A stretch of 64,000 nt of DNA. Source: Halobacteriales archaeon QS_1_68_20. GTDB lineage: Archaea; Halobacteriota; Halobacteria; Halobacteriales; PXRE01. Positions 43,283 through 46,897 of the stretch are shown one piece after another. The translations under genes and the position numbers were made by a program. The notes below the pieces were generated by a model, which was given only the letters and a program-made list of their open reading frames with translations, ran no database searches and was not told the DNA's origin. The stretch is from assembly GCA_003021085.1 (NCBI GenBank), contig PXRE01000040.1:62001-126000 (forward strand), given 5' to 3'. Position 1 is the first letter of the stretch. Each line of letters opens with the position of its first letter.

Positions 43283-44425
43283 ATGAGCGAGTCCGGGACG
43301 CGCAGGTTCTGCCCGCGCTGTGGGGACCCCGTCCAGCGCCCGGCGGACGTCGAACTGCCGGGCGCCCGGGGCCGCCAGCAGCAGCTCTGTGACGCCTGCT
43401 ACTTCGAGGAGTTCGACCTCGTGGACGCGCCCGACCGCGTCCAGGTGCGGGTGTGTTCGCAGTGCGGTGCCGTCCACGAGGGTAACCGCTGGGTGGACGT
43501 CGGCGCCCGGGACTACACCGACGTGGCCATCGACGCGGTCAGCGACGCGCTGGCGGTCCACGTCGACGCCGACGAGGTGACCTGGGGCGTCGAACCCGAG
43601 CAGGTCGACGAGACGACCATCCGGATGCACGCGATGTTCTCCGGACTCGTCCGCGGCACCCCCGTCGAGGATGATGTGACGGTCCCGGTGAAGATCTCCC
43701 GGGAGACCTGCACGCGCTGTGGCCGGATCGCCGGCGACTACTACGCCTCCGTCGTCCAGGTACGGGCGGCCGACCGGCCGGCCTCCGAGGACGAACTGGA
43801 GCGCGCCGAGGCCATCGCCCACGAGACCGTCGCCGAGATGGAAGCCACCGGCGACCGCAACGCCTTCGTCTCCGAGGTCGGCCGGACCCATGAGGGCCTG
43901 GACGTGAAGCTCTCGACGAACAAGATCGGCAGGAAGGTCGCCCAGCGGATCACCGAGCAACTCGGCGGGTCCTTCGGGGACCACGAGACGCTGGTCACCG
44001 AGGACGAGGACGGCAACGAGGTCTACCGGGTGACCTACGCCGTCCGCCTGCCGCCGTTCCGCCAGGGCGACGTGATCGACCCCGAAGACGACGACGCCGG
44101 CCCGGTCGCGGTCACCAGCGTCCGCGGCAACCTCAAGGGCCGGCGCCTGACGACCGGGAACCCCTACGAGGCGAGTTACGAGGACGGCGACGCGCCCGAC
44201 GCGCGGAAACTCGGCCACGCCGAGGACGCCGAGGAGACGACCCTCGTCGCCGTGGAAGACGAGCGCGCCATCCAAGTACTCGACCCCGAGACCTACGAGA
44301 CCAGGACCGTCGCCCGTCCGGACTTCGCGGACGTGGAAGGCGACACCGTCCCCGTCCTCAAGAGCAGGGCCGGCCTCCACGTCGTGCCCCCGACCACGCC
44401 TGGAGAGGCCGAGAGCGATGACTGA
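43283..44425 (+). CDS. nmd3: archaeal NMD3 family protein
   Basis: The 380-residue product corresponds to archaeal NMD3, the homologue of the eukaryotic 60S export adaptor, expected to bind the large ribosomal subunit. The N-terminal zinc-binding part has C-x-x-C pairs (FCPRCGDP, LCDACYF, VCSQCGA, TCTRCGR) typical of the family. The middle domain (LDVKLSTNKIGRKVAQRI) and the OB-like C-terminal part follow. The last eight bases overlap the next gene, which encodes a tRNA-modifying-type methyltransferase, so ribosome and tRNA maturation genes are coupled here. Confidence 0.9.
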   Translation: MSESGTRRFCPRCGDPVQRPADVELPGARGRQQQLCDACYFEEFDLVDAPDRVQVRVCSQCGAVHEGNRWVDVGARDYTDVAIDAVSDALAVHVDADEVTWGVEPEQVDETTIRMHAMFSGLVRGTPVEDDVTVPVKISRETCTRCGRIAGDYYASVVQVRAADRPASEDELERAEAIAHETVAEMEATGDRNAFVSEVGRTHEGLDVKLSTNKIGRKVAQRITEQLGGSFGDHETLVTEDEDGNEVYRVTYAVRLPPFRQGDVIDPEDDDAGPVAVTSVRGNLKGRRLTTGNPYEASYEDGDAPDARKLGHAEDAEETTLVAVEDERAIQVLDPETYETRTVARPDFADVEGDTVPVLKSRAGLHVVPPTTPGEAESDD

Positions 44426-45518
44426 GAGTGACGAACGGGAGACGTCTATGACTGCGGGCGACCCCCTGGCCGCCGTCGTCCGCAAAGGCGTCGCGGAGGC
44501 GGCCATCCGCTCGCTACGTGCGGAGGGCGTCTACGACGAACAGCGGCGGGTCCGCGAGCGCGACGACGAGACCATCGAGGTGCCGGTGACCGAAGCGCCC
44601 GCGGAGACGGACGTGCTGGACCTGGTCCGGCAGGTCGACCCCGAACCGCGGGTCACGGGCCTGGCGGACCTGCTGCGGGAGCAGGGGTTCTCTGACGAGG
44701 AGGTCGACCGCGCGCCGTCCTCGTGGGCGGTCGTCGGGACCGTCGTCCTCGCCCGCTTCGATGACTGCCCGCGCCGCCAGGAGGTCGCGGAGGCCCTGCT
44801 GGAACTCCACGGCGAGGCCGACACTGTCGTGGACGGCCGCGGGGTCGACGGCGTCCACCGCGAACCAGAGGTGGACGTCGTCGCCGGCGAGGGCGACACC
44901 GAGACCGTCCACGTCGAGCACGGTACCCGCTACGCGCTGGACCTCTCGCGGGTGATGTTCTCGCCGGGCAACAAGGCCGAGCGCGCCCGGATGGGTGAGG
45001 TGGTCGCCGGCGAGGCGCCGCCGGCCGTCGGGACGGGCAACGACGGCGACGAGCAGGTGCTGGACATGTTCGCGGGCGTCGGCTACTTCGCGCTACCGAT
45101 GGCACGGGCGGGTGCCCGCGTCACCGCCGTCGAGCACAACCCGACCGCCTTCCAGTACCTGCTGGAGAACGCCAGCCTCAACGACGTGACCGACCGCGTC
45201 GACCCCTACCGGGGCGACTGCCGGGAGGTGGTCGACCGACTCCCCGCGGAATCGGTCGACCGCGTCGTGATGGGCTACTACGACGCCACCGACCCCGGCG
45301 AGGCGTACCTCGACCCCGCGCTGCACGCGGTCGCCCCCGGCGGCGTCCTGCACGTCCACGCGGCCGTCCCCGAAATGGAACTGTGGGACCGGCCCGTCGG
45401 CCGGATCGAGGCCGCCACAGACGCCGCCGGTCGGACGGCGGAGGTGCTGGACCGCCGGACGGTCAAGACCCACAGCGAGGGGGTCAGCCACGTCGTGCTG
45501 GACGTTCAGACTCCGTAA
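44418..45518 (+). CDS. Trm5/Taw2-like class I SAM-dependent methyltransferase
   Basis: The 366-residue product has an N-terminal helper domain (1-150) and a Rossmann methyltransferase domain: LSRVMFSPGNKAERARMGEV, motif I VLDMFAGVGYFALPMA, VTAVEHNPTAFQYLLENASLN and motif IV DRVVMGYYDA. This fits the Trm5/TYW2 group acting on tRNA position 37 (methyl or aminocarboxypropyl transfer). The last 55 codons deserve care: the final 22 or so match, with divergence, a second copy of the gene end 921 bases downstream, so the present C-terminus (HVVLDVQTP) came with an inserted cassette and the native end was VLDVRVE. Confidence 0.85.
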   Translation: MTESDERETSMTAGDPLAAVVRKGVAEAAIRSLRAEGVYDEQRRVRERDDETIEVPVTEAPAETDVLDLVRQVDPEPRVTGLADLLREQGFSDEEVDRAPSSWAVVGTVVLARFDDCPRRQEVAEALLELHGEADTVVDGRGVDGVHREPEVDVVAGEGDTETVHVEHGTRYALDLSRVMFSPGNKAERARMGEVVAGEAPPAVGTGNDGDEQVLDMFAGVGYFALPMARAGARVTAVEHNPTAFQYLLENASLNDVTDRVDPYRGDCREVVDRLPAESVDRVVMGYYDATDPGEAYLDPALHAVAPGGVLHVHAAVPEMELWDRPVGRIEAATDAAGRTAEVLDRRTVKTHSEGVSHVVLDVQTP

Positions 45519-45522
45519 GATT

Positions 45523-45581
45523 GACCGATTTCCAATTCGAGCAGGATCGGTCGGCATTTTTATTGCCTATCGGATAATAGG
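45523..45581 (+). promoter_or_regulatory. promoter and operator-like repeats of the TumE/TumA cassette
   Basis: An inverted repeat GACCGAT (45523-45529)/ATCGGTC (45546-45552) precedes a TATA-like TTTTTATT (45557-45564), and a second inverted repeat CCTAT (45566-45570)/ATAGG (45577-45581) follows it. The ATG is at 45602. Repeats on both sides of a TATA box suit autoregulation by the downstream wHTH antitoxin (inference). Confidence 0.55.
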
Positions 45582-45601
45582 GGATAGTAAGAAGTGCGAC
45601 G

Positions 45602-45895
45602 ATGGTCGACGGGGACGTCGTGCTAGATCGGAACTTCGACGTCGGCGACGGAAGGCGCGTAGAACTGTTCGCCGTGGAGGACTCGTCGTATCCCGGCGGG
45701 TTCTACTACAGGTTCCAGTTCTACGACCCGGAGGACGGCCGGACGATCCTCCGGTACGACAACGCCCACGAAGCCGACGTGGGACACCATCACCGCCACC
45801 GTGGCGACGACGTGACCGGCATCGAATTCGACGGACTGCAGGCCCACGTGGAACGCTTCCGCCAGGAGGTACGCACCATCAATGCCCGACGATAA
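45602..45895 (+). CDS. tumE: TumE-type toxin (DUF6516 family)
   Basis: The 97-residue product has the DUF6516/TumE pattern: small beta-rich N-terminal part (VVLDRNFDVGDGRRVELFAV) and the signature LRYDNAHEADVGHHHRHRG near residues 57-75, then a C-terminal helix (LQAHVERFRQEVRTINARR). The family is annotated as the toxin of a toxin-antitoxin pair; target not established here. It overlaps the antitoxin gene by 14 bases. The position in a duplicated gene end marks it as acquired. Confidence 0.8.
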   Translation: MVDGDVVLDRNFDVGDGRRVELFAVEDSSYPGGFYYRFQFYDPEDGRTILRYDNAHEADVGHHHRHRGDDVTGIEFDGLQAHVERFRQEVRTINARR

Positions 45896-46322
45896 CAACA
45901 TCGATCCCGCGCCCGAGGACGTGAACTTCCCCGATACGCTCCGGATTACCATCGAGAGCGGCGAAGAGGGGTTCGACCGAGCGCTGGAGGCTGCCGGAGC
46001 CGCCGAAGCGGGCGAGAGTTCACCCGCAGTCGTCTCCTTCGAGAGTACGGAAGGTCTCCGACGACTACTCACCGACCGCCGACTGGAACTCCTTCGGTCG
46101 CTGATGACCGAGCCCCCAAACAGCATTAGCGACCTCGCCGAGCGGCTGGACCGCAACTACTCGACGGTCCACGAAGACGTCGAGGTACTCGCAGAATACG
46201 GAATCGTCCGGTTCCGTCGGGCGGGCCAGGCAAAGCAGCCGTTCGTCCCCTACGAGACCGTCGAGTTCGACGTGACCGTCCGGGCCCCTGGGCCGGGGCA
46301 CGACACTGAAGCGCCAGCGTGA
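45882..46322 (+). CDS. tumA: TumA-like antitoxin, HVO_A0114 family wHTH
   Basis: The 146-residue product has a 70-residue acidic N-terminal part and a C-terminal winged-helix (RRLLTDRRLELLRSLMTEP ... LAERLDRNYSTVHEDVEVLAEYGIVRFRRAGQAKQPF, given in parts), the HVO_A0114-type pattern. In TumE loci this protein is the cognate antitoxin and probable autoregulator. The gene overlaps tumE by 14 bases. The same wHTH family occurs as a fragment in the broken symporter gene at 25222-25308. Confidence 0.82.
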   Translation: MPDDNNIDPAPEDVNFPDTLRITIESGEEGFDRALEAAGAAEAGESSPAVVSFESTEGLRRLLTDRRLELLRSLMTEPPNSISDLAERLDRNYSTVHEDVEVLAEYGIVRFRRAGQAKQPFVPYETVEFDVTVRAPGPGHDTEAPA

Positions 46323-46343
46323 ACCTGATCGGCGGGGCTACCT

Positions 46344-46439
46344 GCCACCGGCCGGGCGGTCGAGGTGGTGGATCGCCGGACGGTCAAGACCCACAGCGAG
46401 GGGGTCAGCCACGTCGTGCTGGACGTGCGGGTCGAGTGA
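46344..46439 (+). pseudogene. displaced native 3' end of the methyltransferase gene
   Basis: In frame, 31 codons read ATGRAVEVVDRRTVKTHSEG and then VSHVVLDVRVE before TGA at 46437-46439. They match the end of the methyltransferase (AAGRTAEVLDRRTVKTHSEG ...). The stop lies directly against the stop of the convergent membrane-protein gene at 46440, the tight spacing expected of the original locus. It has no start codon of its own. Confidence 0.85.
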
Positions 46440-46658
46440 TCACTCGCCGACGCCCCTCGCGGACTCGGCCGTCGCGATGAGGAAGCCGGTGATGGCGGTC
46501 ACGAGCGCGACGACGCCGACGACGACGACGGTGACGTTGTACAGCGTCCCCGAGACGACTTCCTGTGCCGTGATGAGGAACACGGCCGACACCGCCGCGA
46601 TCAGCACGTACAGCCGGAGGAGTCGGCCCGTGTCCAGTGAGGAACCCGAACCGCTCAT
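46440..46658 (-). CDS. small two-helix membrane protein
   Basis: The 72-residue product has a short S/G-rich start, then two hydrophobic helices, about 14-32 (LYVLIAAVSAVFLITAQEV) and 38-62 (YNVTVVVVGVVALVTAITGFLIAT). Its ATG overlaps the stop of the upstream membrane-protein gene by four bases, so they form a two-gene unit. The family is unknown to me. Its 3' end abuts the displaced methyltransferase gene end. Confidence 0.7.
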   Translation of the reverse strand: MSGSGSSLDTGRLLRLYVLIAAVSAVFLITAQEVVSGTLYNVTVVVVGVVALVTAITGFLIATAESARGVGE

Positions 46659-46897
46659 GATCGCAGGACGCTCACCAGGCCCTCGTAGTCGCTGTCGGTG
46701 TAGGCGTTCCCCAGCGAGTGGATCGACTGGGCGATCCACAGTCCGGCGGTGAAGTTCAGGAACGCGACGAACGAGACGACCTGCAACTGCCCCTCCAGCA
46801 GGAACACCGAGCCGACGGCGCCGAGAAGCGAGGCGGCCATGATGGCGTGGGTGACCAGCGACCGCGTGCCGAAGTCCGCGAGTCGACCGAGGTCCAT
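46655..46897 (-). CDS. small membrane protein, partner of the next gene
   Basis: The 80-residue product has two hydrophobic helices, about 13-33 (SLVTHAIMAASLLGAVGSVFLL) and 38-57 (LQVVSFVAFLNFTAGLWIAQSI), and a polar tail with Y and D. A TATA box GCTATATAC on the minus strand at 46922-46930 lies about 25-33 bases before the ATG at 46897. It is translationally coupled with the 72-residue protein downstream. The two probably act as a complex (inference). Confidence 0.7.
   Translation of the reverse strand: MDLGRLADFGTRSLVTHAIMAASLLGAVGSVFLLEGQLQVVSFVAFLNFTAGLWIAQSIHSLGNAYTDSDYEGLVSVLRS

Follow-up and report, generated by a model that had tools for sequence, protein, structure and literature searches.

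Results

A TumE toxin-antitoxin pair lies between two copies of a gene end

In the window analysed here, a 64,000-nucleotide stretch of contig PXRE01000040.1 from Halobacteriales archaeon QS_1_68_20, an nmd3-like gene is followed by a tRNA methyltransferase-like gene, in an operon that is kept in most haloarchaeal relatives, and then by a TumE/HVO_A0114-type gene pair (Table 1). The methyltransferase-like gene, for which an ATG at 44418 is a possible start too, carries TRM5-TYW2 and TYW2_N_2 domains, and Taw2 models are top-scoring in NCBIfam, yet stay below cut-off. The name given to it in a first-pass annotation, Trm5-like, is acceptable, and "Taw2/Trm5 family" is more exact in view of these domains and models.

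Table 1 Features of the TumE locus in the window.
Feature	Position	Strand	Remarks
nmd3-like gene	43283-44425		
Host gene, Taw2/Trm5-family tRNA methyltransferase-like	44448-45518	+	PF02475 (E 2e-42), PF25133; complete, ends VQTP-TAA
Left repeat copy	45423-45505	+	Within the complete host gene; 45453-45505 identical to 46374-46426
Substitute tail	45506-45518	+	Cassette-side sequence, encodes QTP; stop TAA at 45516-45518
Putative promoter region of the cassette	45560-45601	+	T-rich box, then imperfect CTATC..GATAG inverted repeat
TumE (DUF6516) toxin gene	45602-45895	+	PF20126 (E 3.8e-14; 52.9 bits against a cut-off of 23.4)
HVO_A0114-type winged-helix antitoxin gene	45882-46322	+	PF25212 (E 1.9e-31); 14-bp overlap with TumE
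Right repeat copy (displaced gene end)	46344-46426	+	First 30 bp diverged, last 53 identical
Native gene end, ..RVE	46427-46439	+	TGA at 46437-46439; abuts a convergent gene, 46440-46658

The pair is bracketed by a direct repeat of 83 bp at an offset of 921, with 76 of 83 positions identical (92%). All seven mismatches fall within the first 30 bp (P = 0.0005 against random placement), so that both the 53 identical bases reported at first pass and the diverging homology described upstream of them are confirmed. Chance is excluded for this repeat, which scores 62 against a 99th percentile of 12 in the cross-locus null. Beyond 45505 the copies part, the left reading QTP-TAA and the right RVE-TGA, with both stops in register. 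Compared with 71 scorable relatives, the right tail was closer in 68 and the left in 2, and a QTP ending was found in none of the 71; the native end thus lies in the right copy and the left tail comes from the cassette side, in agreement with the earlier description of VRVE as native and VQTP as a different tail. The host gene in the window is therefore whole through an element-side 3' end, with its native end displaced. Behind that native end, minus-strand ORFs at 46440-46658 and 46655-46897 encode small membrane proteins with no convincing Pfam match, and the second gave no tblastn match in the relatives' loci compared.

The shared unit comprises a putative promoter and two genes

With its predicted TumE domain and an adjacent DNA-binding partner gene, the window pair is a predicted TumE-type toxin-antitoxin system. 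An antitoxin gene lies next to TumE in 144 of 149 loci. PADLOC returned no match for the toxin and only generic winged-helix matches for the antitoxin. The weak CTATC..GATAG inverted repeat is a possible operator, in a region whose promoter function is likewise putative.

Between the window repeats we found two genes only and no integrase, as had been noted at first pass; the tyrosine recombinases of this genome lie on other contigs. A search with the 838-bp between-repeat region against 394 haloarchaeal genomes and plasmids gave best relatives of 71-75% DNA identity. The closest cassettes (a Natrinema plasmid, G125 and G128) align from ~55-78 to 817 of the 838 bp and none of them beyond, which corresponds to ~20-42 bp before the TumE start through to the antitoxin stop codon (~45560-46322); the match in G381 ends 2 bp further, and those in G370 and G247 end earlier, at 771. 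These limits bear out the earlier proposal of a minimal inserted unit. Cassettes that are ~95-98% identical also occur in different places with little flank in common; for the clearest pairs (the two L226 copies, L222/L227, L194/L201, L165/L167 and L211/L237) the shared flank measures 38-268 bp on the upstream side and 0-111 bp on the downstream side. The best reading is that the TumE/HVO_A0114 pair is a minimal mobile cassette of ~760 bp, made up of a promoter and two overlapping genes and lacking a recombinase.

The two cassettes of locus L226 (genome G330) are 98% identical and ~4.5 kb apart, with 38 bp upstream and 111 bp downstream in common, and one of them is followed by sequence resembling an IS200/IS605-type end (CCACGACTGAAGTCGTGGG). 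The closest plasmid relative (75% DNA identity; NZ_CP101875.1, L318, 163-3224) is on a circular Natrinema plasmid of 29.8 kb, ~1.7 kb from a tyrosine integrase gene, and this plasmid is a possible vehicle. A viral vehicle was also considered and set aside: viral contigs and phage records held no relative of the window TumE and no exact match to the repeat core.

Flanking repeats are enriched across haloarchaeal TumE loci

The first-pass annotation had suggested looking for other TumE loci flanked by repeats of the adjoining gene end. We gathered TumE loci class-wide by family score, independently of repeats, and compared 350 bp upstream with 250 bp downstream of each pair (n = 144). A flank score of at least 13 was reached by 22 of 144 pairs, against ~0.9 expected from cross-locus pairing. 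Strong repeats, scoring at least 25, were found at 13 of 144, compared with 2 of 1460 random pseudo-cassettes at other haloarchaeal loci (Fisher 1e-12) and 14 of 1500 placed elsewhere in the same loci (7e-8). With one family of five collapsed, 9 of 140 remain (1e-8 and 5e-5). Several of the strong repeats are gene 3' ends. Weak alignments (L128, L188, L120, L110, L241, L189 and L105) were left out as evidence. Most cassettes, recently moved ones included, have no detectable repeat.

Duplicated gene ends mark several independent insertions

Besides the window cassette, about seven independent others have a duplicated gene end at their landing site. In L206 the terminal 57 bp of purK are repeated, and in L147 the terminal 42 bp of a rubrerythrin-like gene lying on the other strand, each repeat finishing precisely with the stop codon. 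L140 (G059) and L276 (G333) both repeat the 3' end of an archaeosortase-like gene. In L238 some 358 bp of panB, a gene that we named by its C-terminal sequence without a family search, are repeated at ~90% identity as far as the stop, and most of this length is still an open frame. The L207 repeat comes from the end of a beta-lactamase-like gene and has an internal deletion; those in L205, L219, L235, L176 and L215 are the end of a 154-aa ORF. In L112, 44 bp of tRNA-Gly are duplicated. Repeats also occur elsewhere, at a gene 5' end in L232 and at the start of a TFB-like gene in L115.

The targets are unrelated and repeat length ranges from ~40 to 358 bp. In protein genes the homology typically runs as far as the stop codon, or breaks off a few bases before it with the stops in register, and it weakens towards the interior of the gene; these limits and this polarity were seen post hoc and scored by eye. 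Five protein-gene cases are compact, with ~60-130 bp before TumE and 10-85 bp after the antitoxin, and their displaced gene ends are still 90-100% identical. Neighbours shared between loci (the Taw2/Trm5 family, panB, archaeosortase) were discarded as proof of targeting, since by our own estimate about the same number is expected by chance among 144 loci.

In L112 (G056, 978-2620 as oriented), the TumE pair has an intact tRNA-Gly on one side and a 44-bp tRNA 3' half on the other, with a third, shorter tRNA-end piece beyond the latter; these pieces suggest repeated integrations.

Related genomes retain empty sites

Alignment with cassette-free relatives, the check proposed at first pass, revealed same-genus empty sites for three other insertions. 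For L147, G156, G109 and G073 have the uninterrupted gene, followed by the DNA found behind the displaced end in G161; in G099, which has the L147 insertion site in common, we detected neither a displaced end nor the native downstream DNA. For the archaeosortase insertion in G333, the alignments of G250 (95% identity in the host gene) and G088 run across the displaced end and on into the gene that lies downstream. The third insertion, in G037 (L133, 1863-2719), places a different TumE/HVO_A0114 pair directly behind the Taw2/Trm5 gene of another family, with no repeat; the same-genus G025 (L134) offers a clean empty site, having the next gene there, with homology resuming at the antitoxin stop. 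For purK (L206) no clean empty site was found among same-genus genomes, because the DNA behind the displaced end differs. The window's own empty site we infer from its native tail and from the relatives, in whose loci no second Taw2/Trm5 gene end was found.

Discussion

Proposed entry at a carried or duplicated gene end

The repeat, the native right tail, the same arrangement at other gene ends and the empty sites of relatives together support the central claim of the first-pass annotation, that the cassette leaves its host gene with a duplicated and preserved 3' end. Our main reading, to which we give a probability of about 0.5, is that a transposase-free TumE cassette entered by recombining at a gene end that it carried or that was duplicated. 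By this mechanism, which we infer, the TumE/HVO_A0114 cassette would enter the 3' end of the Taw2/Trm5 gene and leave a gene end at either border, with the complete gene finishing in cassette-side sequence and the native end orphaned on the far side. The arriving DNA would be a circle or concatemer of the cassette with a spare, slightly foreign copy of the gene 3' end, and a single crossover in the gene end would at once insert the cassette and repair the gene. The two copies could recombine with each other and so release the cassette again, and toxin-antitoxin addiction would retain it. A new gene end would first be acquired, most probably, by an insertion that duplicates its target, as has been proposed for restriction-modification units. 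No circle or excision product was seen.

The pattern of mismatches and alleles suggests that one repeat copy is partly foreign. In particular, the displaced end in G059 has GAGATTAC, as in G333 and G250 and unlike the gene of G059 itself; in this Halobacterium pair, G059 and G333, the cassettes are 95% and the host genes 93% identical. Together with the mismatch polarity and the stop-codon limit, this favours a carried, partly foreign end over a target duplication. The diverged allele that the cassette was first thought to have carried is to that extent favoured, although unproven, since duplication with partial gene conversion could look alike. Against entry at a carried end stand the many cassettes, the majority of all, that show no repeat, the G037 insertion, made at the Taw2/Trm5 gene end without a repeat, the few repeats at gene 5' ends or elsewhere (L232, L115) and the QTP tail of the window, which is unlike a natural allele of the host gene. 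A homology of 42-83 bp is also short for ordinary homologous recombination.

Alternative explanations

A bare cassette might instead have been joined between two chromosome breaks at different positions, duplicating the stretch between them, with the copies then diverging and being partly homogenised by gene conversion. Haloarchaeal polyploidy would permit such breaks, and 3' ends would be over-represented as the gene there stays unbroken. The variable repeat length and unrelated targets speak for this possibility, as do the repeats at gene 5' ends or between genes, and insertion of this kind is described for restriction-modification units, which are addictive like toxin-antitoxin pairs (PMC3874152, PMC3031569). 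Long direct repeats do flank the window cassette, and a single-copy unoccupied site was seen in relatives for the L147 and G333 cases. However, random breaks would not be expected to give the sharp stop-codon ends of L206, L147, L238 and G333, nor the clustering of mismatches on the gene-internal side, and gene conversion is required as an extra step; we regard this explanation as rather unlikely, if the foremost of the alternatives.

Integrases offer another route to a duplicated 3' end. A site-specific integrase acting at the gene end, as once suggested for this locus, is not supported: none is encoded in or adjoins the cassette, the targets differ from case to case (Taw2/Trm5, purK, panB, archaeosortase and others) with no one recurrent attachment site, and a hotspot at the Taw2/Trm5 end is rejected, that end being duplicated only in the window among 226 matching class genomes, bar one fragmented assembly (two contigs). 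The cassette could also be the relic of a larger plasmid or provirus with its own integrase and an attachment site in the gene end, from which all but the toxin-antitoxin pair was deleted, loss of the pair being harmful. A 3' end duplicated to the stop and fading into the interior is the trace that integrase elements leave in protein genes, as e14 does in icd, one case is a tRNA 3' half (L112), and the closest plasmid relative is near an integrase gene. Trimming is nevertheless disfavoured by the equal compactness of the five protein-gene cases and by their displaced ends, whose remaining identity leaves little time for it; moreover, each case would need a different integrase, and no gene-end sequence was found on the Natrinema plasmid. 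We consider such a relic improbable. An assembly artefact or a simple local tandem duplication, for which one might cite the 40 contigs and 81.5% completeness of the assembly, has next to no likelihood, as the contig around the locus spans at least 126 kb, the two copies have different sequences and tails, and independent genomes show this architecture too, with empty sites in relatives.

Relation to known systems

Restriction-modification units have been reported by Kobayashi and colleagues (PMC3874152, PMC3031569, PMC1643837) to insert with no mobility gene and to leave long target duplications of variable length, the long-target-duplication insertion being credited in these papers to Nobusato et al. 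2000 (Gene 259:99). Like those units, the TumE cassette is a two-gene, presumably addictive unit with no known mobility gene and with long, variable target repeats (of the order of 100 bp); unlike them, it is an archaeal toxin-antitoxin pair whose repeats lie mostly at gene 3' ends, typically reaching the stop codon, with a divergence gradient suggesting a foreign gene end. TumE-TumA was validated in 2023 as a translation-targeting toxin-antitoxin system in proteobacterial pairs (PMC10584680), a text in which the word "mobile" is absent. The window pair likewise sets a PF20126 (DUF6516) toxin beside a DNA-binding antitoxin, but is haloarchaeal and has an HVO_A0114 winged-helix antitoxin. The literature searched, which covered few subscription papers, yielded no description of TumE pairs moving by gene-end duplication.

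The likeness to integrase elements is in the outcome. Some of these elements, such as e14 and phage 21 in icd, provide a protein gene or tRNA with a replacement 3' end. In both situations the element supplies the 3' end, the gene is whole and the native end lies on the far side, whereas the TumE cassette is without an integrase, ~0.8 kb long and composed of two genes, and has another target in almost every case.

For the spread of chromosomal toxin-antitoxin pairs without a mobility gene, the present unit is delimited (promoter and two genes), and its insertions can be compared with empty sites. Gene-end duplications point to one concrete route, in which a carried gene end recombines, that can be tested in archaea amenable to genetics, and this route would explain how such pairs settle harmlessly beside conserved genes. 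A broader idea, which we put forward tentatively, is that TumE cassettes form a transposase-free mobile class carrying a spare host-gene 3' end as both docking homology and repair patch. If so, a toxin-antitoxin pair could enter conserved genes of a new species, leave them undamaged and install itself by addiction.

A flanking-repeat rule for all toxin-antitoxin families was not retained: with somewhat larger flanks compared, strong repeats were found at 1 of 29 RelE/ParE loci, a sample too small to decide. In one RelE/ParE locus (L306, G110) the toxin gene is flanked by a ~170-bp direct repeat, and long flanking duplications may thus extend beyond TumE. A G-rich palindromic element (CCCCCGAGAGGGGTGCGGGGG), which recurs on either side of RelE/ParE loci and close to a TumE locus (L291, L293, L296, L115), looks like a dispersed repeat.
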